A stretch of DNA of 13,658 nt from Burkholderiales bacterium (GTDB lineage: Bacteria; Pseudomonadota; Gammaproteobacteria; Burkholderiales; SG8-39): assembly GCA_029266935.1 (NCBI GenBank), contig JAQSVY010000009.1, forward strand, positions 1 to 13,658. The letters run 5' to 3'. Position numbers and translations under genes: made by a program. The stretch's first letter is position 1; each line of letters begins with the position of its first letter. Under the pieces are notes generated by a model. The model was not told the origin of the DNA and did no database searches. It saw only the letters and a list, made by a program, of their open reading frames with translations. Of the stretch, positions 748-13,658 are shown in pieces.

Positions 748-767
748 GCCGCCGTAACCACGGCGGC
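748..767 (-). terminator. GC-rich hairpin touching the GntR stop codon
   Basis: A perfect 7-bp inverted repeat (GCCGCCG / CGGCGGC) with a 6-base loop begins at the last base of the GntR stop codon region. Its position suggests transcription termination or protection of the 3' end of the GntR message. No T-run follows on the minus strand, so it is not a classic intrinsic terminator. Confidence 0.35.
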
Positions 768-1474
768 TATGCGTGCCACCGCTCCTCACGTGAGTCGCGT
801 GCGCTGCCAGCCAGAGAAGATAGAGCATTCAGGCGCGCGTTCCTTATGTGGCGCCGCATGCAGCCCTCCGCTGCGTCGGGGTTGCGTGTGACGAGAGCGG
901 CAAGGATCTCGCGGTGTTCGGCGAACGCCGCTTGGGCGCGGCCGGGCTGAGCGCTTGCCCGGAGGCGGTGCAGGCGGAGATGGTAGTAGACTTGGTCGAG
1001 CAGCAGCTTCTCCAAGTGTTCGCAGCGGGCGCCCTTGATGGTGGCGAAGTGGAAATCGTCGTCCCCGACCCCTTGATGATAGGCTTGGCCGGCAGAGATG
1101 TCTGGTTGCCGCCCGTGTTCCTCGAGGAGCGCACGCAAGTGCTCGATTTCGCCTGTGGTCATGTTCTCCGAAGCTAGCCGCGCCGCCATGCCTTCCAGCG
1201 CCTCGCGTACGAGGAAGAGCTGCGACACCTCTTCAGGCCGAAAGTCGATCACTCTGATCCCGATCCGGGGAGTTCGGGTGACGAGCCGCCCCTCAAGCCG
1301 TCCCAACGCTTCGCGAAGGGGACCTCGGCTGATCCCGAGCTGTCGCGCAAGTTCCGACTCCGACAGGCGCTGGCCAGGCGAGTAGGCGCCAGACGTGATC
1401 AGCTGGACAAGCTTCGAGAATGCCTCCTCTGCGAGGGAGGTGATTGCGATCGGCTCAATGGCTTGTGACGTCAT
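767..1474 (-). CDS. GntR-family transcriptional regulator, FadR/FCD subfamily
   Basis: A 235-residue DNA-binding regulator, probably repressing the divergent catabolic operon until a pathway ligand binds. Residues ~15-75 form the winged helix-turn-helix (RLSESELARQLGISRGPLRE…). Residues ~80-225 form the all-helical FCD effector domain. Its probable metal/ligand residues are D138 and H142 (in DDDFHFA), H187 (AEHREIL) and H209 (MRRHI), the D/H/H/H pattern of metal-binding FCD proteins. I chose the ATG at 1474 because an AGGA Shine-Dalgarno lies just upstream and homology begins soon after. A longer frame starts with a TTG at 1546, but that codon lies inside the operator/-35 element. The wing segment reads RLEGRLV where relatives usually have one more residue. 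The family is certain; the ligand is unknown. Confidence 0.9.
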   Translation of the reverse strand: MTSQAIEPIAITSLAEEAFSKLVQLITSGAYSPGQRLSESELARQLGISRGPLREALGRLEGRLVTRTPRIGIRVIDFRPEEVSQLFLVREALEGMAARLASENMTTGEIEHLRALLEEHGRQPDISAGQAYHQGVGDDDFHFATIKGARCEHLEKLLLDQVYYHLRLHRLRASAQPGRAQAAFAEHREILAALVTRNPDAAEGCMRRHIRNARLNALSSLAGSARDSREERWHA

Positions 1475-1537: not shown

Positions 1538-1551
1538 AACTGTCAACAGTT
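1538..1551. promoter_or_regulatory. Operator palindrome 1 (GntR side) with embedded minus-strand -35
   Basis: AACTGTCAACAGTT is a perfect 6-bp inverted repeat (AACTGT/ACAGTT) around a 2-bp centre. It contains the TGT-N2-ACA core typical of FadR-subfamily operators. Read on the minus strand it includes TTGACA (1546-1541), a consensus -35 pointing at the GntR gene, 64 bp upstream of its start. I see no convincing -10 at the expected distance. The regulator most likely represses its own gene here. Confidence 0.7.
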
Positions 1552-1631: not shown

Positions 1632-1645
1632 AACTGTTGACAGTT
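1632..1645. promoter_or_regulatory. Operator palindrome 2 (operon side) with embedded plus-strand -35
   Basis: AACTGTTGACAGTT is the exact reverse complement of operator 1. It contains TTGACA at 1637-1642, a consensus -35 directed at the lyase gene whose ATG is 49 bp downstream. The sequence 16-18 bp further on (TGTTTTGA) is a poor -10 match. The centres of the two operators are 94 bp apart, close to nine helical turns, so one regulator assembly could bridge them. Confidence 0.7.
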
Positions 1646-1693: not shown

Positions 1694-2560
1694 ATGCGCG
1701 CGACGCGGGTTTTGAAGGATCTGGTCGGTCGGAGGGAGGCCGTGACGGTGCCCGGCGCGGCGAATGCGATGTTCGCCCGGGTGATCGAGGATCTCGGCTT
1801 CGAGGCCGTCTACGTCACGGGCGCGGGCGTCGCCAACATGGCGCTCGGCGTGCCGGATATTGGTTTGACCACCGTGACGGAGCTTGCGGCCGCCGCGTCG
1901 TCCATCGCCGATGCCGTGTCGCTGCCCATAATCGTCGATGCGGACACGGGCTTCGGCAATGCCGTCAACATGGTGCGCACTGTCCGTCTGCTCGAAAGAG
2001 CTGGGGCGGCCGGCATTCAGATCGAGGACCAAGTTTTCCCGAAGAAGTGCGGCCACTTCAACGGAAAGGAGGTCATTTCGGCCGACGAGATGATCCAGAA
2101 AATCAAGGCAGCGGTCGATGCGCGCGCCGACGGTGACCTGCAGATCATCGCCCGCACCGACGCGCGCGCCATCGAGGGTCTCAATCGCGCGATCGAGCGG
2201 GCGCAGGCCTTTGTAGAAGCAGGCGCGGACGTCACTTTCGTCGAGGCGCCGATCTCGCCCGTCGAACTCGCCCGGATTGCGCAGGAGATCGCCGTCCCGC
2301 AGGTCGCCAACGTCGTGTTCGGCGGCAAGACGCCGGATCCCGGCCGCGAGCGGCTCGCTGAGATGGGCTTCTCTATCGTGCTCTACGCCAATGCGGCCCT
2401 GCAGGCGGCCCTCAAAGCGTCATACGACGTGCTCGGCGCGCTGAAGAAGGAGGGCTCGCTAGCCTCCGTCGCCGAGCGGCTTGCCTCCTTTGACGAGCGA
2501 CAGCGCGCCGTTGCTAAGCATGAATGGGACGCGCTCGAGAGCCGTTACCGGGCGGCCTAA
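1694..2560 (+). CDS. Isocitrate lyase/PEP mutase-superfamily C-C lyase (methylisocitrate/dimethylmalate lyase-like)
   Basis: A 288-residue cytosolic (beta/alpha)8-barrel enzyme of the usual length for this superfamily. Visible residues are the Mg2+/substrate acids D82 and D84 (VDADTG), E111-D112 (IEDQVFPKKCGH), R154/D156 (ARTDA), E184 (VEAP) and N206. The KKCGH loop with C119 is the catalytic-cysteine loop of true lyases. Phosphonopyruvate/PEP mutases lack it, so cleavage of a 2-hydroxydicarboxylate into a 2-oxoacid plus a short acid is expected. EDQVFPKKCGH-GK closely resembles 2,3-dimethylmalate lyase, but methylisocitrate or another alkylmalate is possible. It is the first gene of the operon, with GAGAGGG a few bases before the ATG, and the next gene starts 11 bp after its stop. 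Family is certain; substrate is inferred. Confidence 0.88.
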   Translation: MRATRVLKDLVGRREAVTVPGAANAMFARVIEDLGFEAVYVTGAGVANMALGVPDIGLTTVTELAAAASSIADAVSLPIIVDADTGFGNAVNMVRTVRLLERAGAAGIQIEDQVFPKKCGHFNGKEVISADEMIQKIKAAVDARADGDLQIIARTDARAIEGLNRAIERAQAFVEAGADVTFVEAPISPVELARIAQEIAVPQVANVVFGGKTPDPGRERLAEMGFSIVLYANAALQAALKASYDVLGALKKEGSLASVAERLASFDERQRAVAKHEWDALESRYRAA

Positions 2561-2571
2561 GGGGATTTGCC

Positions 2572-3273
2572 ATGACTGCTCTGGGGCAAGCCGATGCCAA
2601 GCCGTGGGACGGAGTCATCTCCGAAGAGGAGCAGCGCGCTTACAACGCGGCCGGCTTCGGCCGGCGGACCGGGCTCGGCAAGCGGCCGGCGCTCCTCATC
2701 ATCGACGTGCAGTACCGGACCACCGGAACGGAGCCGATGCCGTTCTGGGAGGCCATCGAGGAGTATCCAACTTCGTGCGGCGACGTCGCCTGGGCCGCGG
2801 TCGAGCGCATCCAGGCGCTTCTCGAACTCTTTCGGGAGCGCGACTGGCCGGTGCTCTATCCGCTGGTCGCGCCCAAGCAGTCCTTCGACCGCGGCCGGCT
2901 CTCAGACAAGGTGCCGGCGATCATGGATGTCGCCGCGAAAGGCTATGAATTCCCGCCCGCGATCGCGCCGCGCGAGACCGACATCCTTCTGCCTAAGAAA
3001 CATCCGAGCGCCTTCTTCGGCACGCCGCTCGCGAGCTACCTGATCAATGCCGGGGCGGACAGCCTCGTCGTCACCGGCTGCTCCACGAGCGGCTGCGTGC
3101 GCGGCAGCGTTGTGGATGCGTTCGCTTACAACTTTCGGGTCCTCGTGCCCCATGACGCCGTCTACGACCGGAGCGTCACCTCGCACGCGGTGAACCTCTT
3201 CGACATGGCATCCAAATACGCGGATGTGGCGTCTACGGACGAAGCGATCACCGCTCTGCGCAAGATCGCCTGA
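2572..3273 (+). CDS. Isochorismatase-family cysteine amidohydrolase (N-carbamoylsarcosine amidase-like)
   Basis: A 233-residue cysteine hydrolase. The catalytic triad of the family is visible: D45 (LLIIDVQ), K142 (PKKHPSAFFGT) and C175 (GCSTSGCVRGS). GC-TSGCVR-S is the signature of N-carbamoylsarcosine amidase, maleamate amidohydrolase and related C-N hydrolases rather than of isochorismatase proper. It probably hydrolyses a linear amide or N-carbamoyl group, releasing ammonia (and CO2 if carbamoyl). I chose the ATG at 2572 because GGGG lies 7 bp before it; an upstream in-frame ATG lies inside the lyase gene and adds residues without homology. Enzymes of this type often act directly after a hydantoinase-like ring-opening enzyme, and one is encoded at the end of this operon. 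The substrate is unknown. Confidence 0.88.
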   Translation: MTALGQADAKPWDGVISEEEQRAYNAAGFGRRTGLGKRPALLIIDVQYRTTGTEPMPFWEAIEEYPTSCGDVAWAAVERIQALLELFRERDWPVLYPLVAPKQSFDRGRLSDKVPAIMDVAAKGYEFPPAIAPRETDILLPKKHPSAFFGTPLASYLINAGADSLVVTGCSTSGCVRGSVVDAFAYNFRVLVPHDAVYDRSVTSHAVNLFDMASKYADVASTDEAITALRKIA

Positions 3274-3308
3274 ACGACAATCGACAGGCTGGCAACAGGA
3301 GAGGGACA

Positions 3309-4469
3309 ATGAAGCAAGCGAGCTCGATTACGAGAAGGATGGCGTTTTTGGCCGGCACGGCCGCGATCACACTCTCCGGCGCTTCGCTCGCCGTTGCCCA
3401 GGAGGCGCTCCGTTTCGGCATGGCCATGCCGCTCTCAGGAGGTCAGGCGACCTACGGGCAGGACCAGGTCAAGGCCGCCGAATGGGGCGTCGCGGCTATC
3501 AACGAGAAGGGCGGCGTGAACGGCAAGAAGCTTGAGATGCTGGTCCTCGACACGCGCGCTGACCCGCAGGCTGGCATTCAGGCGGCGAACCGTCTGGTTT
3601 CGGTCGAGAAGGTACCCGCCTTCGTGAGCGCCTGGTCGTCGGTCGTGAAGGCGATTGCGCCCATCAGCAACGACAACAAGGTCGTACAGCTCTCCGTAGG
3701 CGCGAATTCGGCGGATATCGCTAAGCTGGGCGAGTACACCTACACAACCTTCCCGCTGGCCGACATCGATATCACCGCCGTCGCAAAGTATGCGGCTACG
3801 CAGATGGGCAAGAAGAAGGCGGCAGTCATCTACATCAACAATGAAACCGGTACGGTCGCCGCGCAGATCTACCGCGACGTTTTCACCAAGGCAGGCGGCC
3901 AGGTCGTTGCCTATGAGGCGTATGACCCGAAGGCCTCGGACTGGACCGGCCCGCTCCTCAAGATTCGGGCGGCCCAGCCCGACATGATCCACATCCAGGG
4001 GCTCGTCGCCGACACGCCCCAGGTCATCGCGCAGATGCGGCAGCTCGGGCTTTCTCAGCCGGTTTCCTCCTACTCCGCGGTTTACAACCCAAAGCTGATT
4101 GAGCAGCTCGGAAAGGCGGCCGAGGGCGTAATCGCGACCTCGCTCGCGCCCGGCGTGACGGACAGCCCGGCGGTCGCCGCGTACGTCGAGCGCTGGAAGA
4201 AGGAGGTCGGCCGCGAGCCGAACGGCCTGCCCTACACGCAGTATCTCTACGACGCGCCCTTTATCGTCGCGGCGGTCTACAAGTCGCTCGACGAGAAGAA
4301 GCTCCCGCTCACCGGCGAGAACTTTCGCAAGGAGATGCTCGCGATCCGTAGCTTCGACCTGCCGCTCACGGGCAAGCTCACCATCAACGACGACCACACG
4401 GTCAACAAGCCCGTCTTCCTCATGGAGGTGAAGGACGGGAAGTGGACTCAGAAGGCCGTCGTCAACTGA
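3309..4469 (+). CDS. ABC transporter substrate-binding protein, branched-chain amino acid/HAAT type
   Basis: A 386-residue periplasmic type-I binding protein (LivJ/Peripla_BP_6 fold) that captures the transported compound. The N-terminus has a signal peptide with a twin arginine (R9-R10 in SITRRMAFLAG), a hydrophobic segment, and a likely cut after AVA (residue 30). This suggests Tat or Sec export. The mature protein starts ALRFGMAMPLSGGQA-YG, the standard first strand and ligand loop. Two Rossmann-like lobes follow. A strong AGGAGAGG lies just before the ATG. Proteins of this family bind amino acids, amides, urea, aromatic acids and other small molecules, so the ligand cannot be read from sequence. 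The catabolic neighbours point to a cyclic amide or a dicarboxylate derivative. A stable hairpin follows the stop codon. Confidence 0.9.
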   Translation: MKQASSITRRMAFLAGTAAITLSGASLAVAQEALRFGMAMPLSGGQATYGQDQVKAAEWGVAAINEKGGVNGKKLEMLVLDTRADPQAGIQAANRLVSVEKVPAFVSAWSSVVKAIAPISNDNKVVQLSVGANSADIAKLGEYTYTTFPLADIDITAVAKYAATQMGKKKAAVIYINNETGTVAAQIYRDVFTKAGGQVVAYEAYDPKASDWTGPLLKIRAAQPDMIHIQGLVADTPQVIAQMRQLGLSQPVSSYSAVYNPKLIEQLGKAAEGVIATSLAPGVTDSPAVAAYVERWKKEVGREPNGLPYTQYLYDAPFIVAAVYKSLDEKKLPLTGENFRKEMLAIRSFDLPLTGKLTINDDHTVNKPVFLMEVKDGKWTQKAVVN

Positions 4470-4486
4470 GCCGTCCAGCCCGTCCC

Positions 4487-4511
4487 GAGGCGGCGCGTCC
4501 GGCGCCGCCTC
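4487..4511 (+). promoter_or_regulatory. Intra-operon GC hairpin between binding protein and permease genes
   Basis: GAGGCGGCGC and GCGCCGCCTC form a perfect 10-bp stem with a 5-base loop (GTCCG), 17 bp after the binding-protein stop and 19 bp before the permease start. No T-run follows. Such hairpins after periplasmic binding-protein genes commonly block 3' exonucleases or partly stop transcription, giving more binding protein than membrane components. The structure is seen; the role is inferred. Confidence 0.7.
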
Positions 4512-4530
4512 CCCATGCTCAAGGCGAGCG

Positions 4531-5499
4531 ATGCTGACCTTCGATACCATCGCGCAGGTGCTGTGGACGTCCTTCGCGACGTCCAGCTACCTCGTGCTCT
4601 TTGCCGTCGGCTTCGCGCTCGTCCTAAAGGTGAACCAGATCTTCAACTTCGCCCAGGCCGCGGTCATGACGATCGCGTTCTACTCGGCACATGCGGTCGT
4701 CTCGATGGCGGGGCTCTCGGGCGTGCTCGGCTTCATCGCCTCACTCGCCTCCGCCACGATCGCGGCGGCATTCCTCGAGGTGTTCGGCTTCCGGTCGCTC
4801 CGGCGGCGGCGCGCCTCGCAGATGTTCGTCTTCATCTTCACGCTTATCGTGTCCGAGCTCGTCGCCTACATGGCGATGCTGATCTTCGGCACCTGGCCGA
4901 CCACGGTCTTCCCGTCGCTCTTCTGGCCGGTCTCGCTCGTGGGCAACATGGCGGTGAGCGCGTGGGACGTGCCGGCCATCGGTGCGATGCTGGGCTCGCT
5001 CGCACTTCTGTTCCTCTTCCTGCGCTACTCGCAGTCGGGGCGTTTCATGATCGCGGTCGCGGACAATCCCGACCTCGCGGAGCTCTACGGCATCGAGAAG
5101 AACCGCATCTACCTCATCGCCATGGTCATCTCTGGGCTTCTGATCGGAGTGGGCATGTTTCTCTACGGTTCGCGGGCTCAGGTTCAGGCGACGACTTCGA
5201 TCGAACTGATGCTCTTCGCGATCGCGGCCACGATCATCGGCGGCATCGGGAACGTCTGGGGCGCGGCGATCACGGCGATCGTCCTGGGCGTCGTGCAGAA
5301 CGGCAGCGTCCTGTTCATCCCGTCGGAATGGCAGGGGTTCTTGCTCTACGCCTTCCTGTTCCTGGCCATCGTCTTTTTCCCGAAGGGCGTGAAGCTGCCG
5401 GAACGTAAGCGGGGCCTCGCCCGCAAGATCGCCAGCGTCGATCTCAATGCGAGCGCGTCGCGGGCGGGCACCAAGGCCGCTGCGGCTGGAGAGGGCTGA
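4531..5499 (+). CDS. ABC transporter permease, LivH type
   Basis: A 322-residue inner-membrane permease of the HAAT family that pairs with the next gene's product to form the channel. It has about eight hydrophobic segments, from residue ~8 to ~285. Family landmarks include N-QIFNFAQAAVM near the N-terminus, the ATPase-contact loop GRFMIAVADNPDLAELYGI (~165-190), and the conserved IGGIGNVWGAAI turn near the C-terminal side. The last ~40 residues form a charged, Ala-rich cytoplasmic tail, longer than usual. The ATG at 4531 is preceded by AAGGCGAG. Only 3 bp separate its stop from the following GTG, so the two permeases are translationally coupled. Confidence 0.9.
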   Translation: MLTFDTIAQVLWTSFATSSYLVLFAVGFALVLKVNQIFNFAQAAVMTIAFYSAHAVVSMAGLSGVLGFIASLASATIAAAFLEVFGFRSLRRRRASQMFVFIFTLIVSELVAYMAMLIFGTWPTTVFPSLFWPVSLVGNMAVSAWDVPAIGAMLGSLALLFLFLRYSQSGRFMIAVADNPDLAELYGIEKNRIYLIAMVISGLLIGVGMFLYGSRAQVQATTSIELMLFAIAATIIGGIGNVWGAAITAIVLGVVQNGSVLFIPSEWQGFLLYAFLFLAIVFFPKGVKLPERKRGLARKIASVDLNASASRAGTKAAAAGEG

Positions 5500-5502
5500 G
5501 CC

Positions 5503-6396
5503 GTGGACTACATCTACACGCTCGTCATCCTGATCGCGCTCGGCGTCATCCTGGCGTCGAGCTTCAACCTGATCATCGGCTACGCGGGCCTCATCTCCAT
5601 CGCGCATCCGGTCTTCTATGCGATCGGGGCCTATGCCTCGGCAATCCTGGCGCGCGATCACGGCGTGCCGGTGCCCGTCGCGATGATCTTAGGTGCGCTG
5701 GCCGCGATGATCGCGTCGGTCGCGGTGGCGCTGCCGTCACTAAGGGTCTCAGGCGATTACCTCCTGATCGCGAGCATCGGCTTCCAGCTCGGCCTGCTTG
5801 AGGCGATCAAGAACGTGTCGTTCACGGGCGGCGCGGGCGGCCTGACGAACATACCGTCCTTCCTCATCCAGACCGCTGGGCGCGAGGCCTATGTCGCCCT
5901 CGTGGTCGCGGTCGCGGTGCTCACCATCCTGCTCACGCGCAGCATTGCGCACGGCCCCTATGGGCGGGCACTCAGCGCCATGCGAGACGACGAACTCGCT
6001 TTTGGCGCACTGGGGCGCAATGCGGTGGCCATGAAGGTCGCGGTCTTCGCCCTCGGCTCGGGGCTCGCCGGCCTCGCGGGTGCGCTCTACGCCCACTATT
6101 TCCGGTTCGTTACGCCGGAGCAGTTCGAGCTGCTCCAGTCCGCCGCCATCCTCACGATGGTCGTGGTGGGCGGCATCCGGACCACCTGGGGTCCCGTCGT
6201 CGGAGCGGTGCTCCTCCAGGCGCTGCCGCAGGCGATCACCTTCCTGGACCTGCCGACGGCGCTTCTCGGCCCGCTTCAGGGGCTGCTCTTCACCGGGCTC
6301 GTTTTGGTTTTCATGTTCTGGCGGCCGCAGGGCCTCATCGCCGCCGGGGATTTCTGGCGTCCGTCGAAGGAGGCCTCCGATGTCGGCCGTGCTTGA
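5503..6396 (+). CDS. ABC transporter permease, LivM type
   Basis: A 297-residue inner-membrane permease, partner of the LivH-type protein. It opens DYIYTLVILIALGVILASSF and then shows the family's NLIIGYAGLISIAHPVFYAIGAY-type segment. It has the cytoplasmic loop GRALSAMRDDELAFGALG that docks onto the ATPases, and the conserved GGIRTTWGPVVGAVL turn. About eight to nine membrane segments are visible. It starts with GTG, preceded by GGAGAGGG at the end of the livH-type gene. Its last 17 bases overlap the start of the LivG-type gene. Confidence 0.9.
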   Translation: MDYIYTLVILIALGVILASSFNLIIGYAGLISIAHPVFYAIGAYASAILARDHGVPVPVAMILGALAAMIASVAVALPSLRVSGDYLLIASIGFQLGLLEAIKNVSFTGGAGGLTNIPSFLIQTAGREAYVALVVAVAVLTILLTRSIAHGPYGRALSAMRDDELAFGALGRNAVAMKVAVFALGSGLAGLAGALYAHYFRFVTPEQFELLQSAAILTMVVVGGIRTTWGPVVGAVLLQALPQAITFLDLPTALLGPLQGLLFTGLVLVFMFWRPQGLIAAGDFWRPSKEASDVGRA

Positions 6397-7138
6397 GGTT
6401 CGAGGGCTGGACAAGCGCTTCGGCGGGATCGTCGTCGCGGACGCGATCGACCTGACGCTGTCGGCCGGGCGAGTCGTCGGGCTCATCGGCCCGAACGGCG
6501 CCGGCAAGACGTCGCTCTTCAACCTCGTGAGCGGCATCTTCCCGGCCGATGCGGGCACGATCACGCTCCAAGGCGAGCGCATCGACCGGCTCAAGACGCA
6601 CAGGCGCGCCGCGCGCGGCCTGTCCCGCACCTGGCAGAACCTGCGCCTGTTTCCCTCTCTGTCGGTGCTCGACAACCTCATGGTCGGGCCTCGCCGCTAT
6701 CCGGGGGAGAAGATGTGGCGCCTCGCTCTCGGCCAGGCCGGTATCCGGCGGGAGGAGGCGCAGACGCGCGGCAGGGCGCTCGAGATCTTGGAACGGACAG
6801 GCCTCGCGGGCGTCGCCCGCACGCGCGCCGCCGACCTCACCTTCGGGCAGCAGAAGCTCGTCGGGGTCGCGAGGGCCTTGATGAACGAGGCTCGCTGCCT
6901 GCTCCTCGACGAGCCGATGGCCGGCGTCGAGGGCCAAGCCTACGACACGATGCAGCGCGTCGTCCGGGATGTCGCGGCGAGCGGGGTCGCCGTCTGCGTC
7001 GTCGAGCACAACGTCGCCTTCATCCGCGACCTCTGCGACGAGGGAGTGTTCATGTTCGCGGGCAAGGTGCTTGCGCGCGGGCCCGTGGCCGACCTCATCG
7101 CCGATCCTCGCCTCACAGAGCTGTACTTCGGAACCTGA
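6380..7138 (+). CDS. ABC transporter ATP-binding protein, LivG type
   Basis: A 252-residue ATPase that energises the importer. Walker A is GPNGAGKT (37-44), the Q-loop Q86 lies in RTWQNLRLFP, the signature is LTFGQQ (153-158), Walker B is LLLDEP (174-179), and the switch His is H210 in VEHN. FGQQ in place of SGGQ is normal for LivG proteins. The ATG at 6380 follows a perfect AAGGAGG (6367-6373) lying inside the permease gene, so the start is well fixed although it overlaps the permease by 17 bp. The LivF-type ATPase follows after 3 bp; the two form the nucleotide-binding heterodimer. Confidence 0.92.
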   Translation: MSAVLEVRGLDKRFGGIVVADAIDLTLSAGRVVGLIGPNGAGKTSLFNLVSGIFPADAGTITLQGERIDRLKTHRRAARGLSRTWQNLRLFPSLSVLDNLMVGPRRYPGEKMWRLALGQAGIRREEAQTRGRALEILERTGLAGVARTRAADLTFGQQKLVGVARALMNEARCLLLDEPMAGVEGQAYDTMQRVVRDVAASGVAVCVVEHNVAFIRDLCDEGVFMFAGKVLARGPVADLIADPRLTELYFGT

Positions 7139-7141
7139 CCC

Positions 7142-7825
7142 ATGCTCGAGATCGACTCCGTCTCGGCAGGCTACGGCTCCCTGACGGCGCTGGAGAACAT
7201 TTCTGCCCGCCTGCCCGACGGAGGGCGCCTCGGCATCTTCGGCCATAACGGGGCCGGCAAGACGACCCTGCTCCGCTGCATCATCGGCGCGCATGCGCCC
7301 TCCGCTGGCACGGTCAGGTTCAACGGCGAACCGGTCATACCCGGCCAAGTGCCGGCGACCGTTCGGCGCGGGATCGCCTTCGTGCCCCAGGGGCACAACG
7401 TCTTCCCGAACCTTTCGGTTGAGGAGAACCTGACGATCTCGGGCCTCTTGTTCGACCCGTCTTTCGTCAAGGAGGTTCTGCGTCTCTTTCCGGTTCTGGA
7501 CGAGCGGCGCAGCCAGCGCGCGGGTTCCATGTCGGGTGGCGAGCAGCAGATGCTGGCGCTTGGCATGGCCATGATGACCCAGCCGAAATGGCTGCTGCTC
7601 GACGAGCCGTCGACAGGCCTCGCACCAGTCATCGTGCGTAACGTGATGGGTCAGCTCACGGCTGTGAGCAAGACCTTCGGGACCGGTCTGGTCATCGTCG
7701 AGCAGAACGTACCCGCGACACTAAAGGTGGTCGAGCACTGCCTCATCCTCAAATCCGGGCGGGCTGTCTACGATGGCGACGCCGCGACGCTCGCCGCCAA
7801 GCCCGACCTCTGGGAGTGGTTCTGA
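7142..7825 (+). CDS. ABC transporter ATP-binding protein, LivF type
   Basis: A 227-residue second ATPase of the importer. Walker A is GHNGAGKT (34-41), the Q-loop lies in FVPQGHNVFPNLSVEENL, the signature is SGGEQQ (131-136), and Walker B is WLLLDEPSTGL (150-160). The switch position is Gln (VEQN, Q188) instead of His, as is usual in LivF proteins. It begins 3 bp after the LivG-type gene. Its TGA ends one base before the next ATG, which ties transport and catabolic genes into one transcript. Confidence 0.92.
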   Translation: MLEIDSVSAGYGSLTALENISARLPDGGRLGIFGHNGAGKTTLLRCIIGAHAPSAGTVRFNGEPVIPGQVPATVRRGIAFVPQGHNVFPNLSVEENLTISGLLFDPSFVKEVLRLFPVLDERRSQRAGSMSGGEQQMLALGMAMMTQPKWLLLDEPSTGLAPVIVRNVMGQLTAVSKTFGTGLVIVEQNVPATLKVVEHCLILKSGRAVYDGDAATLAAKPDLWEWF

Positions 7826-7826
7826 C

Positions 7827-9227
7827 ATGAAGCCGAGACGCGACGAGGCTGTCCGGGCTGTGAGCGCCGCGGCGGCCGAAGACCTCATGCGGTGGGCCGC
7901 GGAAGCCGCCCATATGCCGCTTCCGCCCGAGATCCGCGATCGCGCGGCCCTGGTGCTTTCAGACAATATCGGCGCGATGGTCGCCGCAGCGTCGGAGCCG
8001 GGCGTGGCTCGCAGTCGCGAGGTTTTCGCGCGCGGCTCCTGCGCGGCCGAGGCGAGTGTCTTTGCGCCCGGCACCCCGCGTCTCGACCGAGTATCGGCCG
8101 CTTCCGCCAACGGCATGGCGGCAGCTTGGTGCGAGCTCGACGAGGGTTTCCGCGGCGCGCCCTGCCATGCGGGCGCCTATGTCATACCGGCGCTCGTGGC
8201 TGAGGCGGAGGCACACGAGGCGAGTCTTGGGGCGGTCCTCTCCTGCCTGGCCGTCGCGTACGAGGTCACGGCTCGCATGGCTCGCGCCTTTCCGTTCCCG
8301 GCCATGACGGTCCATCCGCACGCAGCCTTCGCGACGATCGGGGCCGCCGCAGGCGTCTCGCTTATTCGCGGGCACGATGCCGGGCTGCTGCTCGATGCCG
8401 TGTCGGGCGCCGCTAGTATGAGCTTCGCGGGCCCCTACGGGCACGCGATCGAGGGTGCGCTGGTGCGCAACGCCTGGACGTCGGCCGGCGCCTCGGTCGG
8501 GATGCGGTCCGCCGACTTCGCGGAGGTCGGGATCGCCGGCCTTCCGGAGACGTTCTACGATGTCTTCGCGACCGCCTTCGGCACAAACGCGCAGCCGGAC
8601 GCCTTGAGCGCGGGCTTGGGGACCGAGTGGTCGATCGCCGGCGGCTACCATAAGATGTTCGCCTGCTGCCAGTACGCCCATGGGGCGATCGAGGCGACGC
8701 TCGCCATGCGCGAGCGGCTCGGGACCGGCCGTCGGGTCGAGGACATCGAGGAGATCCTGGTTGAGACGCATCCGCGCGGCCTGACGCTCACGGCGGTGGA
8801 GCCGCGGACCGTGCTCTCCGCCAAGTTCTCGATGCCCCATGCGATGGCAGCAACTGCCGTTGCGGGCACCGGCGGCCAGCCCGCATTCAGCGAAGAGGCG
8901 CTTCACGAACCGAGGATCGCCGAGCTCCGCCGCAAGGTCCGGCTCGAGCCAATCGGCGAGGTCGGGCCGCCACCAAACGACCGTCCGTCGCGGGTGACCT
9001 GGCGGTTCCGGGACGGCGAGAGTTGGTCTGAGCTCCGGGAAAGCGCGCGCGGCGGGGCCGACCAGCCCTTCGACGAGGCGACGCTGGTCGAGAAGCTCTC
9101 TGACAACACGGCTGCGGCCTTTCCGGCAATGGCCGGGGTGCTGACGGCGATCGTTCGCGGCGAGACGGATCTGAGCGCGCGGTGGCGCGACACGGTCGAT
9201 GACATGATGCGGGACGCGGGACACTGA
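7827..9227 (+). CDS. MmgE/PrpD family protein 1
   Basis: A 466-residue member of the family that includes 2-methylcitrate dehydratase, cis-aconitate decarboxylase and iminodisuccinate epimerase. The N-terminal helical domain carries CELDEGFRGAPCHAGAYVIPA; E103/D105/E106 and H114 match the family's 'E-DD…H' active-site segment. HPHAAFATIGAAAG (H163/H165) matches the second His region. KMFACCQYAHGAIEA (~276-290) is the conserved C-terminal-domain segment. At the position of the conserved Lys ('G…K…') this protein has R214 (GALVRNAW), so its reaction may differ from the classic dehydratase. It starts one base after the LivF-type gene and its TGA overlaps the next ATG by one base (TGATG). A substrate cannot be assigned; (de)hydration, isomerisation or decarboxylation of a dicarboxylate is likely. 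Confidence 0.85.
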   Translation: MKPRRDEAVRAVSAAAAEDLMRWAAEAAHMPLPPEIRDRAALVLSDNIGAMVAAASEPGVARSREVFARGSCAAEASVFAPGTPRLDRVSAASANGMAAAWCELDEGFRGAPCHAGAYVIPALVAEAEAHEASLGAVLSCLAVAYEVTARMARAFPFPAMTVHPHAAFATIGAAAGVSLIRGHDAGLLLDAVSGAASMSFAGPYGHAIEGALVRNAWTSAGASVGMRSADFAEVGIAGLPETFYDVFATAFGTNAQPDALSAGLGTEWSIAGGYHKMFACCQYAHGAIEATLAMRERLGTGRRVEDIEEILVETHPRGLTLTAVEPRTVLSAKFSMPHAMAATAVAGTGGQPAFSEEALHEPRIAELRRKVRLEPIGEVGPPPNDRPSRVTWRFRDGESWSELRESARGGADQPFDEATLVEKLSDNTAAAFPAMAGVLTAIVRGETDLSARWRDTVDDMMRDAGH

Positions 9228-10591
9228 TGGGTAGCGATGTCGACATCCTGGTGATCGGGGCAGGGGGGTGCGGGCTCGCGGCCGCGATCGCGGGGCATGA
9301 TGCCGGCGCGAGCGTGGCCGTGCTCGAAAAGCAGGAGCGGCCGGGCGGCAATACCTCCCTGTCCACCGGATCGGTTCCGGCGGCCGGCAGTCGCTTCCAG
9401 CGCGAGGCGGGGATCGACGACGATCCGGAGCGCATGGTCCGCGATCTGATGGGCATCGCGAAGGAGACCGACGACCTCGATCTCGTCCACAGGCTGGCCG
9501 GCGTCTCGGCCAAGACGGTCGAATGGCTAGTCGACGAGGTGGGAGCGCGGATCGCGCTCGTCACCGCCTACAAGCACATCGGCCACTCGGTGCCGCGGCT
9601 GCACGCGCCCGTGTCGCGGCGCGGCCAGGATCTCGTGGACGACCTCGTCTCCGCCGTCGAAAGGCGAGACATCCCGATTGCGGTCGGCAACAACGCTGTC
9701 GGCCTCATCGTCGAGGATGGGGCGGCCCAGGGTGCGATCGTCGAAACCGGCGGCACGCGGAGCGAGATCCGTGCCGGCAAGACCATCCTATCGGTGAATG
9801 GGTTCGCCGGGAATCCGGACCTCGTACGGCGGTTCTGCCCGGAGATCGCAGGCGCCGAGTATTTCGGTGCGCGCGGCTCGACCGGCGAGGCGATCCTGTG
9901 GGGGGAGGCGATCGGGGCCGATTTCGCGAATATGGCAGCCTACCAGGGCTATGCCGCAGTCGCTTATCCGCAGGGAAGCCTGCTGTCCTGGACGACGATC
10001 GAGAAGGGCGGCTTCATGATCGGCGACGATGCACGACGCTTCGGCGACGAGAGCCTCGGATATTCCGGCTATGCCCGCATTGTGCTGGGCCGGCGGGGCG
10101 ACACCTATGCGGTCTTCGACCAAAAGATTTTCGACGTCGCCGCAGGCGAGGAGGAGTTCCTCGAGCTGTGGAAGCACGCCGGCCTGAAGCGCGGCGAGAC
10201 CCCGGACGAGATCGGGCAGATCGTGGGGCTGGACGGGGCGGCGCTCGCCGACGAGGTCGCGGCATATAACCGGGCGGCCGGGGGCGAGGCGGACCGTTTC
10301 GGCCGGCGCGACTTCGGCCTCGGCCCGCTGAAAGGGCCGTTCTACATCTGCCGCGTCGTTCCGGGGCTCTTCCACACGCAGGGCGGCCTGAAGGTGGACG
10401 GCGACGGCCGGGTGCTGCGGCCGGCCGGCAAGCCCGTGCCGAACCTGTTCGCCGGGGGTGGCGCTGCGGCCGGCATCAGCGGCCGGAGCGGGGCGCTGGG
10501 CTACGCCTCGGGTAACGGCCTTCTGTCCGCGATTGCGCTCGGGCGGCTGGCGGCGCTCGCCGCCGCGCGCGAGCTCCGGCACCCAGCATGA
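9227..10591 (+). CDS. FAD-dependent oxidoreductase, fumarate reductase/3-ketosteroid dehydrogenase-like
   Basis: A 454-residue soluble flavoprotein of the FAD_binding_2 family. The N-terminal Rossmann fold has VIGAGGCGLAAA (G11-G16), E34 for the FAD ribose and GGNTSLSTG. RFGDES (~271) matches the 'RF-NE' region. FHTQGGL (H383) matches the substrate His of fumarate reductases, and the C-terminal FAD loop is NLFAGGGAAAGISG…GYASGNGL. The fumarate-reductase NRLGGN motif is replaced, so it is not a standard fumarate reductase. No signal peptide, heme site or membrane segment is seen. It probably moves a hydride across a C-C bond alpha,beta to a carboxyl or carbonyl group, as a dehydrogenase or reductase; the direction is unknown. 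It lies between the two MmgE/PrpD genes and overlaps both, which argues for a shared substrate. Confidence 0.85.
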   Translation: MGSDVDILVIGAGGCGLAAAIAGHDAGASVAVLEKQERPGGNTSLSTGSVPAAGSRFQREAGIDDDPERMVRDLMGIAKETDDLDLVHRLAGVSAKTVEWLVDEVGARIALVTAYKHIGHSVPRLHAPVSRRGQDLVDDLVSAVERRDIPIAVGNNAVGLIVEDGAAQGAIVETGGTRSEIRAGKTILSVNGFAGNPDLVRRFCPEIAGAEYFGARGSTGEAILWGEAIGADFANMAAYQGYAAVAYPQGSLLSWTTIEKGGFMIGDDARRFGDESLGYSGYARIVLGRRGDTYAVFDQKIFDVAAGEEEFLELWKHAGLKRGETPDEIGQIVGLDGAALADEVAAYNRAAGGEADRFGRRDFGLGPLKGPFYICRVVPGLFHTQGGLKVDGDGRVLRPAGKPVPNLFAGGGAAAGISGRSGALGYASGNGLLSAIALGRLAALAAARELRHPA

Positions 10592-11994
10592 GCACGGTCC
10601 CGGTTGCGAGACGGCTCGTCCGGCAGTTCCGGGCCCTCGCTCGCCAGCCGCTTCCCGCCGAGGTCGACGAGGCGGCGCGGCTCCATCTCCTGGACGCGCT
10701 TGGCGTGGGCCTCGCGTCGCGGGGCTCCGCCGTCGGCCAGCCCTATGTGCGCTACGCCGCCGGGATCGCGCCAGACGGTCCCGCCACCGTGCTCGGTGCC
10801 GCCACCGGCGCCCCGCCGTCTGAGGCGGCGCTCGTCAATGGCGGCCTAATCCACAGCCTGGAATACGACGACACCCACACGGGCTCGATCGCGCACGGCT
10901 CGGCCGTCCTGGCCCCGGCGGCGCTCGCGGCGGGCGAAGCGGCGGGCGCGTCGGGTGCGACGGTGCTGCGGGTCTTCGCGCTAGGTTGGGAGACGCTCAT
11001 CCGGATGGGCCTCGCCTCTGCGGCCGGGTTCCAAGCCGTCGGGTTTCAGGTCACGTCCGTCGGGGGAGCGCTCGTAACCGCCCTTATTGCGGCGGAGCTC
11101 TCGGGGGCCGGCGAGGACGAAGCCGTGGCGGCGGTCGGGATTGCGCTGAGCGGCTCGTCCGGCGGGTTCGAATTCCTCACCAACGGCTCGTCCGTGAAGT
11201 CGATGCATCCCGGCTGGGCCGCGCATGCCGGACTCACGGCGGCTGCCATGGCGCGCGCCGGGCTCACCGGTCCGGAGACCGCGATCGAGGGCCGCAACGG
11301 GCTCTTCCGGTCCTTCGCCGGGGACGAGGCTGGCGGGGCGGCCTTCGCGGCGCTCCTCGACGATTTCGGCAGCGTCTGGCACCTACCCAAGGCCGCCTTC
11401 AAGTTCTATCCCTGCTGCCACTATCTCCACCCGTTCATCGAAGCGACGGGGCGGCTCGCGGCCGACGGGCTCACGGCCGAGGACGTGGTTGAGATCGTCT
11501 GTTATGCGCCCGCCGGGAGCGCGCCGATCGTCTGCGAGCCATGGGCGCTCAAACAGAACCCGTCCTCCGGCCACGCCGCCCGCTGGAGCCTCCCCATCGT
11601 TGTCGCGGCGCGCCTCGTCGAGCGACGCGTGGGGCTCGCGACCTTCGAGTCGCCCGCCAGCCCGGCCGTGCTGGCGCTCGCCGCGCGCATCCAATGGGAG
11701 CCGCTCGCTAACGACCGGTTCCCGGCCGCCTTCGAGGCCGAGATCCGGTGTCGGACCCGCGACGGCGGCACCCGCGAGGTTCGGATCGACGACGTGTTCG
11801 GCAACGCCTCCAGGCCCGCGAGCCCGGACAACGTGCGCCGGAAGTTTCAGGCGAACGCCGCCCGCACCCTCGGCGGCCCGGCAGTCGCGGCGCTCGAGGC
11901 CGCCGTGGACGCGCTCGCTGGCGCGCCCTCGCTCGGCGCCCTTCAGGCGGCACTCCGGACCGAGCGGACGAGCGACGAAAGGAGCGCCGCATGA
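10588..11994 (+). CDS. MmgE/PrpD family protein 2
   Basis: A 468-residue MmgE/PrpD protein, clearly diverged from the first copy. It is closer to the family consensus: HLLDALGVGLAS, ALVNGGLIHSLEYDDTH (E92, D94, D95, H97), H103, GSSVKSMHPGWAAHAG (K204), EGRNGLF, and KFYPCCHYLHPFIEA near the C-terminal domain. The usual GFHPT His is replaced by Gln (GFQVTS, Q154). It keeps the conserved Lys that copy 1 has lost and lacks the His that copy 1 keeps nearby. The start overlaps the flavoprotein stop as ATGA and its own stop overlaps the next ATG the same way. Probable role is (de)hydration or isomerisation of a 2-alkyl dicarboxylate. Substrate unknown. Confidence 0.87.
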   Translation: MSTVPVARRLVRQFRALARQPLPAEVDEAARLHLLDALGVGLASRGSAVGQPYVRYAAGIAPDGPATVLGAATGAPPSEAALVNGGLIHSLEYDDTHTGSIAHGSAVLAPAALAAGEAAGASGATVLRVFALGWETLIRMGLASAAGFQAVGFQVTSVGGALVTALIAAELSGAGEDEAVAAVGIALSGSSGGFEFLTNGSSVKSMHPGWAAHAGLTAAAMARAGLTGPETAIEGRNGLFRSFAGDEAGGAAFAALLDDFGSVWHLPKAAFKFYPCCHYLHPFIEATGRLAADGLTAEDVVEIVCYAPAGSAPIVCEPWALKQNPSSGHAARWSLPIVVAARLVERRVGLATFESPASPAVLALAARIQWEPLANDRFPAAFEAEIRCRTRDGGTREVRIDDVFGNASRPASPDNVRRKFQANAARTLGGPAVAALEAAVDALAGAPSLGALQAALRTERTSDERSAA

Positions 11995-13394
11995 GCGCCT
12001 ACGATCTTCTCATCCGCGGCGGTGAGGCCGTCCTGCCGGGCATCGGCCATGCCCCTTGCGATATCGCAATCCGTGAGGGCCGCATCGCCGCCATCCTCGA
12101 GCCCGCAGCTCCGGCCGAGGCGACGGCGAGTTTCGACGCGTCCGGCCTCGTCGTGATGCCGGGCGCGATCGACGCGCATATCCATCTCGGACACGGCAAG
12201 GACATCTCTCGCCCACGCGTGCCGGACGACGCGACCCAGGAGAGCGCCGCGGCCGCGAAGGGCGGGGTGACGACCTTCATCTCCTACCTGTTGGCGAGCG
12301 AGCCCTTCGAGGATATCCTCCCCGACGTGATCACCGTGACAGAAGCGGGCTCGCGGGTCGATTTCGGCTACCATCCGATCATCTCGACGGAGGCGCAGCT
12401 CAAGGGCGTGCCGGCCTATGTGCGGGAGTTCGGCGCGCCGACCTTCAAGATCTTCATGAACAACCGGGGCGGGGAAGGCGCGCGCCTCGGGCTGCCCGAC
12501 ATCGACGACGGGTTCCTGCTTCGCCTCTGCGAGGCGGCGGCGGAGAATGGCGGCATGGTTTGCCCGCACCCGGAGACGATCGAACTCGCCTGGGTCATGC
12601 GCGACCGGGCCAAGGCGGGCGATCCTGACGGCCGCGGCGGCCTCGCAACCTGGAACGCGAGCCGCCCGCCCTTCGTCGAGGCGGATGCCGTGCAGCGCGC
12701 CGCCTATGTCGCGAAAGTGGCGGGGTGCCCGCTCTACGTCGTCCACACGTCGTCGTCGGAAGCGCTCGAGGCGGGGCTGCGCCAGCGCGCGGCCGGCGCG
12801 ACGGTGCATCTCGAGACCTGCCCGCACTACCTGACCCACGACATCGGCTGGGACGGCGGGGACCGCGGTAAGATCAACCCGCCGCTGCGGGAAGCTGTTG
12901 ATCGAGAAGCCTTGTGGGCGGCCGTGTTCTCCGGCGCGATCGACACAGTCGCCACGGACCACGTCCACCGCGACATCACGTCGAAGACAGGCGGGATTTG
13001 GGCTGCCTCCCCGGGCTGCCCGGGCCTCGAGACGCTCGTGCCCGTCCTCGTCAGTGAGGGGCACCACAAGCGCGGGCTGCCGCTGGAGCGTATCGCCGAG
13101 CTCGTCGCCACGAACCCGGCACGCCTCATGGGTCTGGCGCATCGGAAGGGCACCATCGCGCCGGGCTTCGACGCCGATCTCGCCTTTCTCGACCTGAACC
13201 AGACCTGGACGCTAACAGCGGACGGCATCGCCTCCAGCGCTGGCTATTCGATCTACGAGGGTTGGGAGTTCAAAGGCTCCATCGTTCACACGACCGTCCG
13301 CGGCGAGTTCGTCCTACGCGACGGCGAGCTCCACGAGCCTGCCATCGGCCGAGGCCGCTACCTTCATCGACGGCTGCGGATCGGGAATGCTTGA
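11991..13394 (+). CDS. Hydantoinase/dihydropyrimidinase-like cyclic amidohydrolase
   Basis: A 467-residue metal-dependent amidohydrolase, about the length of D-hydantoinase, dihydropyrimidinase and allantoinase. Ligands of a binuclear centre are visible: H63 and H65 (DAHIHLG), K153 (TFKIFMN, the probable carboxylated lysine), H193 (CPHPE), H252 (VVHTSSSEALE) and D323 (VATDHVHRD). ETCPHYL, KINPPLR and NPARLMGLAHRKGTIAPG-DADLAFLD are further family markers. It should open a cyclic amide, imide or ureide ring. ATDHVHRD replaces the usual sequence after the metal Asp, and WNASRPP-E follows hydantoinase style, so the substrate may not be a simple hydantoin. AAAGGAG lies 6 bp before the ATG, which overlaps the previous stop as ATGA. 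It is the last operon gene. Confidence 0.88.
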   Translation: MSAYDLLIRGGEAVLPGIGHAPCDIAIREGRIAAILEPAAPAEATASFDASGLVVMPGAIDAHIHLGHGKDISRPRVPDDATQESAAAAKGGVTTFISYLLASEPFEDILPDVITVTEAGSRVDFGYHPIISTEAQLKGVPAYVREFGAPTFKIFMNNRGGEGARLGLPDIDDGFLLRLCEAAAENGGMVCPHPETIELAWVMRDRAKAGDPDGRGGLATWNASRPPFVEADAVQRAAYVAKVAGCPLYVVHTSSSEALEAGLRQRAAGATVHLETCPHYLTHDIGWDGGDRGKINPPLREAVDREALWAAVFSGAIDTVATDHVHRDITSKTGGIWAASPGCPGLETLVPVLVSEGHHKRGLPLERIAELVATNPARLMGLAHRKGTIAPGFDADLAFLDLNQTWTLTADGIASSAGYSIYEGWEFKGSIVHTTVRGEFVLRDGELHEPAIGRGRYLHRRLRIGNA

Positions 13395-13465
13395 GCCTCC
13401 GGTATTATCGTCAGCGGAAGCGGATGTCCCCTTCGGAGAAGGTATCGAGGTGCCCTGAACGACTT

Positions 13466-13539
13466 GAATGGGCGCAATCTGGCCGGTACTGGCCGTTCTG
13501 CTTGCAGGTGCGAGATGCGGGCAAACGGACGTCTCTTTT
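13466..13539 (+). repeat. Short interspersed repeat, copy B
   Basis: This stretch repeats the blocks of the element at 603-675 (GAATGGGCGC … GGCC … CCGT..TGCT … CGGACGTC + T-rich) in the same order, orientation and spacing. It lies in the 150-bp gap between the end of the operon and the convergent glutathione S-transferase-like gene. A related partial block (AAGCGGATGTCCCCTTCGG) begins near 13417. No clear intrinsic terminator is seen in this gap. Confidence 0.5.
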
Positions 13540-13544
13540 CGACC

Positions 13545-13658
13545 TCAGTCACGGTCGGGAGCGTCAAGCGGGAAGAGGGGTCGATACGCCCGGGCTTCGT
13601 CGACCACCCGGGCGACCACCGGGTGGGCGAGTAATCGGGCATGATAGGCTTTCAGCTG
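13545..13658 (-). CDS. C-terminus of a glutathione S-transferase-like protein (partial)
   Basis: On the minus strand the window edge opens in frame into QLKAYHARLLAHPVVARVVD, then EARAYRPLFPLDAPDRD and a TGA at 13547-13545. The pattern 'L-aY-aRl-arPaVaRv-dEAr-YR-lFP' is characteristic of the last helix and tail of bacterial glutathione S-transferases. Only 37 codons are inside the window; the catalytic thioredoxin-like domain lies to the right. It converges on the catabolic operon and is probably an independent gene. It could also be a relic, since the N-terminal part cannot be seen. Confidence 0.6.
   Translation of the reverse strand, partial: QLKAYHARLLAHPVVARVVDEARAYRPLFPLDAPDRD

Follow-up and report, generated by a model that had tools for sequence, protein, structure and literature searches.

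The nicotinate fermentation of Eubacterium barkeri employs a hydantoinase-like enamidase at an early stage and, late in its dimethylmaleate branch, a LeuCD-like hydratase and dimethylmalate lyase. A similar set of activities is predicted for an operon of 11 genes on a contig of 13,658 nucleotides from a Burkholderiales bacterium (JAQSVY010000009.1, assembly GCA_029266935.1), here called the window, which is the entire contig C188 of a 2.19 Mb genome that is 56.5% complete. The operon lacks the nicotinate hydroxylase, mutase and dehydrogenase of the E. barkeri pathway, but contains a cysteine hydrolase, a flavoprotein and MmgE/PrpD proteins. The tail of the methylcitrate cycle (PrpD, or AcnD with PrpF, followed by PrpB) likewise combines an MmgE/PrpD- or aconitase-type hydratase with a lyase of the isocitrate lyase (ICL) family that releases pyruvate. 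In contrast to this tail, the operon includes neither PrpC nor PrpE, its PrpB score stays below the cut-off and its PrpD score is negligible, and its equivalent steps would be preceded by ring opening, amide hydrolysis and a flavoprotein; a methylcitrate cluster was therefore dropped as an explanation. In the methylcitrate cycle, too, the two hydratase types replace each other, according to the accessible part of PMC5690661.

Two further systems share parts of this layout. In Aspergillus nicotinate catabolism, the imidase HxnM, a relative of the PuuE proteins found in variant clusters of the operon, and the amidase HxnN act in succession to give a dicarboxylate; unlike the operon, this route stops at 2-hydroxyglutarate and has no flavoprotein, hydratase or lyase tail in the accessible sections of PMC9304392. 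The itaconate/methylsuccinate clusters described in the accessible part of PMC12290011 combine an MmgE/PrpD protein acting on a substituted succinate with desaturation, hydration and a pyruvate-forming lyase, but that part describes CoA esters and an acyl-CoA dehydrogenase, and neither ring opening nor an amidase. The parts of the operon are familiar, while their combination and the job-by-job replacement of enzymes in relatives appear to be new. A first-pass annotation, made from the sequence alone, had recognised no matching pathway, and no published description of the gene set was found in the open-access literature, a weak negative because subscription papers lie mostly outside this scope.

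Organisation and conservation of the operon

All 11 genes are encoded on the forward strand between positions 1694 and 13394 (Table 1). The successive intergenic distances are 11, 35, 61, 3, -17, 3, 1, -1, -4 and -4 bp, in exact agreement with the tightly spaced, often overlapping genes (gaps of at most 61 bp) of the first-pass annotation. In gene order, the products belong to the Pfam families PEP_mutase/ICL, Isochorismatase, Peripla_BP_6, BPD_transp_2 (two proteins), ABC_tran (two proteins), MmgE_PrpD, FAD_binding_2, MmgE_PrpD and Amidohydro_1, and the importer is a full Liv set of a binding protein, two permeases and two ATPases. The genes almost certainly form a single catabolic pathway. 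For the whole chain of inferred reactions, with uptake of an alkyl-succinimide or maleimide and its breakdown to ammonia and short acids, we put the probability at about 50%.

Table 1. Positions of the operon genes, the regulator and the candidate operators in the window, with proposed roles
Feature	Position	Strand	Observation
ICL/PEP-mutase superfamily lyase; proposed alkylmalate lyase	1694..2560	+	PrpB catalytic residues present, Arg270 replaced by Phe; best PDB match petal death protein
Isochorismatase-like cysteine hydrolase; proposed half-amide amidase	2572..3273	+	Asp45-Lys142-Cys175 triad shared by ≥95% of 32 sequences
HAAT/Liv-type periplasmic binding protein	3309..4469	+	Pfam; Glu of LivJ GPEGV replaced
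LivH-like permease	4531..5499	+	Pfam
LivM-like permease, GTG start	5503..6396	+	Pfam
LivG-like ATPase	6380..7138	+	Pfam
LivF-like ATPase	7142..7825	+	Pfam
PrpD1, MmgE/PrpD protein 1; proposed alkylsuccinate isomerase or hydratase	7827..9227	+	Catalytic His present, one substrate Lys replaced by Arg
FAD flavoprotein; proposed alkylsuccinate dehydrogenase	9227..10591	+	Fumarate-reductase/urocanate-reductase fold; Tyr279 at the Arg402 position
PrpD2, MmgE/PrpD protein 2; proposed hydratase	10588..11994	+	Catalytic His and both Lys present; never with LeuCD
Cyclic amidohydrolase (hydantoinase/allantoinase-like); proposed ring-opening imidase	11991..13394	+	Binuclear metal site His63, His65, Lys153, His193, His252, Asp323 shared by ≥95% of 36 sequences
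Divergent regulator of the GntR/FCD type; probable repressor	about 767..1474	-	Pfam GntR and FCD
Operator candidate AACTGTCAACAGTT	1538..1551		Between regulator and operon; reverse complement of the copy at 1632
Operator candidate AACTGTTGACAGTT	1632..1645		Upstream of the first gene (ICL)

A scan of genome contigs with PrpD1 returned 43 loci. The complete set of 11 genes occurs in identical order in six other loci, namely in Enterovirga aerilata (L014), two uncultured Hyphomicrobiales (L030, L036), Alsobacter soli (L050) and on plasmids of Methylobacterium nodulans and M. aquaticum (L057, L058), and four more (L015, L033, L035, L054) match this order up to their contig ends. Bradyrhizobium sp. 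LHD-71 (L039) contains all 11 genes in a rearranged form. Other versions are reduced or modified: the Microvirga loci (L016, L018) lack PrpD2, and the nearby importer of the same type is only distantly related (24–39% identity); a metagenome-assembled genome (MAG) of the Salinarimonadaceae (L034) lacks the importer; no ICL gene was seen at L024; and Variovorax PBL-E5 has the set minus ICL and, in addition, a CobW-type GTPase. A diverged version in the Comamonadaceae (L042) retains the six enzyme families in full but has the ABC importer replaced by TctC-type binding proteins. When the 43 loci are scored for the four enzymatic jobs defined below, 19 hold at least three, seven hold two and 17 hold one, PrpD being counted and several contigs being short; their PrpD content is given by construction, because the loci were picked with PrpD1.

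Additional genes accompany some of these loci. Betaproteobacterial and other versions (L040, L042, L052, L053, L059, L078) encode CobW-type GTPases close to the amidohydrolase, to which these GTPases perhaps deliver metal. In Microvirga and the Salinarimonadaceae MAG (L016, L018, L034; assigned by Pfam for L016 and L034 and by grouping in the three loci), the operon is repeatedly accompanied by genes for a nitroreductase-methyltransferase fusion, PuuE-like proteins and an asparaginase. An aconitase-like gene beside Bordetella-type loci (one group of three loci, L053 scanned) is close to AcnA and was not counted as a cluster member.

Partner genes of the flavoprotein

The association was also followed with the flavoprotein as anchor, in two samples of 399 genomes from the order and 397 from the phylum (completeness at least 80%, two genomes common to both samples). 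Homologues at E ≤1e-70 are present in 15 genomes per sample, own genome included, which amounts to 26 other genomes in all. The neighbourhoods of these 26 and of a second copy in the own genome gave 27 regions of up to 19.5 kb (8.8–13.5 kb for L080, L082, L083 and L088, with L082 and L083 on short contigs). The second copy (L083, G000:C361:6549-7820) is 42% identical to the flavoprotein of the operon, and its contig also holds an adjoining SDR gene and an amidohydrolase-like piece.

Four partner jobs, i.e. ring opening, amide hydrolysis, hydration and lyase cleavage, were recognised by tblastn with 12 proteins of the window and 44 of other loci as queries (E ≤1e-8, match covering 35% or more of the query), a rule under which some matches are remote (e.g. 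in L102 and L103) and jobs outside the query set would be missed. Of the 27 neighbourhoods, 23 contain a ring-opening gene, 21 contain PrpD or LeuCD, 17 a cysteine hydrolase and 15 a lyase. All four jobs are found in 12 neighbourhoods, three in six, two in three, one in four and none in two, so that 18 of 27 hold at least three. Among 20 control regions of 19.5 kb, placed at chosen round positions in nine of the same genomes, none holds two jobs and two hold one. The enzyme genes are thus neighbours in relatives, so that the first-pass annotation is not refuted by the rarity of such neighbourhoods, which it had named as a refuting finding: six other loci share the gene order, and the clustering is not seen in the controls. 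Importer genes (23/27 neighbourhoods) weigh little, because they are also present in 6/20 controls.

Interchange of enzymes within the clusters

Flavoprotein homologues of about 40% identity are encoded on plasmids in clusters of similar logic that are built from other parts. In Haloferax and Halorubrum, the cluster comprises an amidohydrolase, an isochorismatase-like hydrolase, a LeuCD-like pair, a CoA transferase, an HMG-CoA lyase, an importer and two PrpD proteins, and Natrinema has the same enzymes together with ICL and one PrpD. Halomarina BND7 (L062) encodes amidohydrolases, isochorismatase-like hydrolases, a CoA transferase and a CoA ester lyase. HyuA and HyuB replace the amidohydrolase in Roseomonas, Azospirillum and Sulfitobacter, combined with LeuCD in the latter two and with a PrpD in Roseomonas. 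A third ring-opening type consists of paired PuuE-like proteins (L066, L081, L088, L097, L098, L103), of which one from L097 has PuuE allantoinase and 3qbu as PDB matches. Judged by sequence, ring opening would be performed by a metal amidohydrolase, HyuAB or PuuE-like proteins, amide hydrolysis by the cysteine hydrolase, hydration by PrpD2 or LeuCD, and cleavage by an ICL/PEPM-type lyase or, in haloarchaea, by a CoA transferase and HMG-CoA lyase.

A quick tree of 69 flavoproteins implies at least seven changes of the ring-opening type, eight of the importer, five between LeuCD and PrpD and two of the lyase. An example is provided by the sister rows L089 and L090, which have LeuCD and ICL in common and differ in that the former encodes an amidohydrolase and the latter HyuAB; no cysteine hydrolase was recognised in L089. 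Within 10.5 kb of the flavoprotein gene, window-type PrpD2 is present at 29 of these loci, LeuC plus LeuD at 21, neither at 19 and both at none, the 69 loci being related and not independent.

Two further gene types recur in the variant clusters. The haloarchaeal versions (L060, L061, L062, L067) contain an LLM-class flavin oxidoreductase and a small NTF2-like protein, perhaps for an earlier oxidative step. Clusters of the HyuAB or PuuE type (L065, L093, L096, L097) contain a tautomerase whose C-terminal part was judged by eye to be SnoaL/NTF2-like.

Active-site features of the individual proteins

The lyase contains the KKCGH motif that the first-pass annotation had read in the first gene product, and the PrpB set Asp58, Asp85, Asp87, Glu115, Lys121-x-Cys-Gly-His125, Arg158, Glu188 and Asn210 is complete. 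In an alignment of 34 rows that contains the E. coli protein, Glu188 is the single variable member of this set, being Asp in L042 and L061. Arg270 of PrpB (TRNEL), which we take to serve the extra carboxylate of methylisocitrate, is found in none of the 33 other rows, where it is replaced by Phe in 30, by Ile in L042, by Trp in L061 and by a gap in L049. The score against the PrpB model TIGR02317 is 300.5 bits, below the cut-off of 354.4. The best PDB match of both the window lyase and the Azospirillum cluster ICL is the petal death protein, which cleaves 2-alkyl- and 2,3-dialkylmalates as well as oxaloacetate and likewise has Phe at the Arg270 position.

Sequence scores assign neither of the two hydrolases to one known enzyme. 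For the cysteine hydrolase, the best PDB scores are nearly equal (3ot4, 107.7 bits; 26st, 104.1; 4l07, 103.7); 3ot4 and 4l07 are, we presume, maleamate amidases, and two of the five best matches are N-carbamoylsarcosine amidohydrolases. The amidohydrolase stays below all single-enzyme cut-offs, including those of the best-scoring models, allantoinase (267.5 of 357.85 bits) and D-hydantoinase (247.4 of 393.25 bits), and the residues that follow its metal-bridging Lys differ between subclades and carry no substrate signal.

The structural model of the flavoprotein (pLDDT 89.8) shows the FAD domain fold of flavocytochrome c-type fumarate reductase. Its nearest structures are urocanate reductase and flavocytochrome c3 (Fcc3) fumarate reductase, and ketosteroid and cyclohexanone dehydrogenases follow at lower ranks. 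Arg402, His365, Thr377 and Glu378 of Fcc3 align with Tyr279, Tyr242, Ser254 and Trp255, and Tyr279 is present in at least 95% of 72 aligned sequences. The description as fumarate-reductase-like in the first-pass annotation thus holds for the fold and fails for the catalytic arginine of the family. A true fumarate reductase was dropped on account of these active-site differences, and they also make the label 'fumarate reductase flavoprotein subunit' doubtful for this family, which counts at least 3477 clustered relatives at E ≤1e-60 among 8000 scored candidates and is often named fumarate reductase. Among the relatives with an organism name, the closest (98% identity) stems from a metagenome assembly of the Beijerinckiaceae.

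Both MmgE/PrpD proteins contain PF03972 and PF19305. A catalytic His, a carboxylate-binding His and two Lys are assigned to this family in the accessible parts of PMC12290011 and PMC12259180. When matched through iminodisuccinate epimerase, PrpD1 has both His and one Lys, the other Lys being Arg, and PrpD2 has the catalytic His and both Lys, the second His being Gln. PrpD2 is proposed to be the hydratase because it never co-occurs with LeuCD. The PrpD1 subtype is also encoded beside LeuCD (e.g. in L060, L067 and L092) and is for this reason, and by analogy with the methylsuccinate isomerase in the accessible part of PMC12290011, the putative isomerase.

In the periplasmic binding protein, the GPEGV motif of LivJ is changed to SYSAV in the window and in two close homologues, to SYSAA in Bradyrhizobium and to TYSAG in Variovorax. 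A canonical branched-chain amino acid importer was set aside, because the Glu of this motif, which presumably binds the amino group, is missing.

A proposed pathway for substituted cyclic imides

In the proposed pathway, the ABC importer would take up the ring compound and the metal amidohydrolase would open the ring to a half-amide. The cysteine hydrolase would then free ammonia, leaving an alkylsuccinate or, if a maleimide is the starting compound, directly an alkylmaleate. PrpD1 may adjust the stereochemistry, and the flavoprotein would introduce a C=C bond to give alkylmaleate or alkylfumarate, to which PrpD2, or LeuCD in relatives, would add water. Finally, the ICL-type lyase would split the resulting alkylmalate into a short carboxylate and a 2-oxo acid, which would be pyruvate, 2-oxobutyrate or glyoxylate; in Haloferax and Halorubrum, the CoA transferase and HMG-CoA lyase would perform a like cleavage on the CoA ester.

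A cysteine hydrolase acting after a ring-opening amidohydrolase suggests that two C–N bonds are cut, i.e. that the substrate is an imide or a ureide. An imide would leave a C4 dicarboxylate, which is the substrate class of MmgE/PrpD, LeuCD- and ICL-type enzymes; the hydration would need a C=C bond, which the flavoprotein could supply from a saturated succinate. The characterised MmgE/PrpD substrates in the accessible part of PMC12290011 share a C2/C3-substituted C4 dicarboxylate, and in that of PMC9304392 the cyclic imidase HxnM, related to the PuuE-like ring openers, acts before an amide hydrolase. The chain of the first-pass annotation (ring opening, amide or carbamoyl removal, redox at an alkyl-succinate, hydration, lyase cleavage) is supported by the MmgE/PrpD substrates and by the enzyme interchange in relatives; its carbamoyl variant is less likely, as no deaminating family was recognised among the recurrent neighbourhood families (grouping at three or more loci, judged by eye). 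Further points in favour of the imide pathway are the conserved gene order and the clustering of the jobs, the intact catalytic residues of both hydrolases, the PrpB-type catalytic set of the lyase with its petal-death-protein-like Phe, and the loss of the LivJ Glu from the binding protein.

Several observations weigh against the breakdown of an imide by this chain. No cysteine hydrolase was recognised in 10 of the 27 flavoprotein neighbourhoods and no lyase in 12, and nine hold two jobs or fewer. The scores of the cysteine hydrolase tie between maleamate amidase and N-carbamoylsarcosine amidohydrolase. Neither LeuCD nor PrpD is encoded near the Halomarina BND7 cluster, no ICL gene was seen within 21 kb at L029, and Microvirga has PrpD1 alone, which disagrees with a strict division of roles between the PrpD proteins. 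A maleimide would have no evident need for the flavoprotein. HyuAB relatives act on lactams (caprolactamase model), which makes a lactam substrate possible. Three loci (L085, L086, L089) encode an amidohydrolase of 32–34% identity, LeuCD and the flavoprotein, with ICL in L085 and L089 and without a recognised cysteine hydrolase; because they resemble the pathway and lack a recognised amidase, a related pathway may start from a ring with a single C–N bond to cut.

Rather improbable, but the best of the alternatives, is a cyclic ureide such as a hydantoin or dihydropyrimidine. It would be opened to an N-carbamoyl acid and decarbamoylated by the cysteine hydrolase, after which the flavoprotein would oxidise an aspartate-like amino acid to an oxaloacetate-like product for cleavage. 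The models nearest to the amidohydrolase (allantoinase and hydantoinase), all with scores under the cut-offs, and the N-carbamoylsarcosine amidohydrolases among the matches of the cysteine hydrolase fit this route; L-aspartate oxidase and oxaloacetate-cleaving enzymes fall in the families of the flavoprotein and the lyase, and the HyuAB and PuuE types act on ureides too (PuuE model). However, a ureide leaves an amine, and the hydratase job, present in most flavoprotein neighbourhoods, would be useless; an imide is favoured because no recognised deaminating family recurs.

Unlikely is also a six-membered imide or lactam of the glutarimide type, derived from pyridine or isonicotinate breakdown. 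It would yield glutaramate or tricarballylate monoamide, followed by a flavoprotein like tricarballylate dehydrogenase, a hydratase and a lyase. Nicotinate fermentation ends with dimethylmaleate hydratase and dimethylmalate lyase, and the flavoprotein resembles the tricarballylate dehydrogenase models, although its 128.6 of 369 bits are far under the cut-off; the absence of this enzyme from its structure-match lists excludes nothing. Moreover, fungal HxnM opens a six-membered imide, according to the accessible part of PMC9304392. Against this, no pyridine hydroxylase recurs beside the clusters, tricarballylate would not need a dedicated hydratase and lyase because ordinary aconitase and isocitrate lyase could process isocitrate, and the lyase lacks the arginine that we associate with a further carboxylate.

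That the core is a methylsuccinate- or itaconate-like dicarboxylate catabolism, with both hydrolases as accessories feeding from minor amides, is very unlikely: methylsuccinate clusters that include an MmgE/PrpD isomerase occur widely among Pseudomonadota (accessible part of PMC12290011) and four of the 27 neighbourhoods lack a recognised ring opener, but the other 23 have one, its type is repeatedly replaced, and the window amidohydrolase gene overlaps the preceding gene by 4 bp.

If the breakdown of substituted cyclic imides is correct, the operon represents a catabolic module of Alpha- and Betaproteobacteria, with a variant form in haloarchaea and partly on plasmids, which swaps unrelated enzymes of like chemistry. 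It would also provide testable functions for the flavoprotein family, two MmgE/PrpD subfamilies and one ICL-family lyase, and would make it possible to test directly whether imides, for instance those released by pigment breakdown, are mineralised by bacteria.

The natural substrates could be the dialkyl imides from chlorophyll and heme oxidation, i.e. methyl ethyl maleimide, methyl vinyl maleimide, hematinic acid or their dihydro forms, but this proposal has a low chance of being right. Maleimides from tetrapyrrole oxidation had been put forward as a speculation in the first-pass annotation. 2-Ethyl-3-methylmalate is a substrate of the petal death protein. The diacids of the tetrapyrrole imides resemble 2-methyl-cis-aconitate and the precursor of 2-ethyl-3-methylmalate, and PrpD- and PrpB-like enzymes would therefore convert them to pyruvate or 2-oxobutyrate plus propionate, butyrate or glutarate. 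Among them, purely alkyl imides are favoured over hematinic acid because of the Phe at the PrpB Arg270 position. The idea is ecologically possible, since hematinic acid and maleimides are reported in senescent leaves and lake sediments in the accessible part of PMC7318184, a study that itself detected hematinic acid and no maleimides. If true, the operon would constitute a bacterial route for the last tetrapyrrole fragments.

Regulator and flanking sequences

The GntR/FCD regulator is encoded divergently from the operon, as are its orthologues in L014, L015, L050, L057 and L058, and would repress the operon until its ligand arrives. The candidate operators are palindromic and present in two copies in the space between regulator and operon. 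The motif precedes the ICL gene without mismatch in Enterovirga (L014), a MAG (L015), Alsobacter (L050) and the Methylobacterium plasmids (L057, L058), and with one mismatch in the two Microvirga loci (L016, L018). In Bradyrhizobium (L039), it is located upstream of the binding protein gene. One control region (L106) also contains an operator-like motif with one mismatch.

The first 766 positions of the window contain only remnants without an intact gene, as assigned by eye: the reverse strand carries the C-terminus of a CoxS-type [2Fe-2S] subunit (MSGNICRCAAYPNIVAAI), and the forward strand a C-terminal piece that is LysR-like. Downstream of the operon (13400–13658, reverse strand), the apparent C-terminus of a glutathione S-transferase-like protein, likewise assigned by eye, is cut by the contig end.

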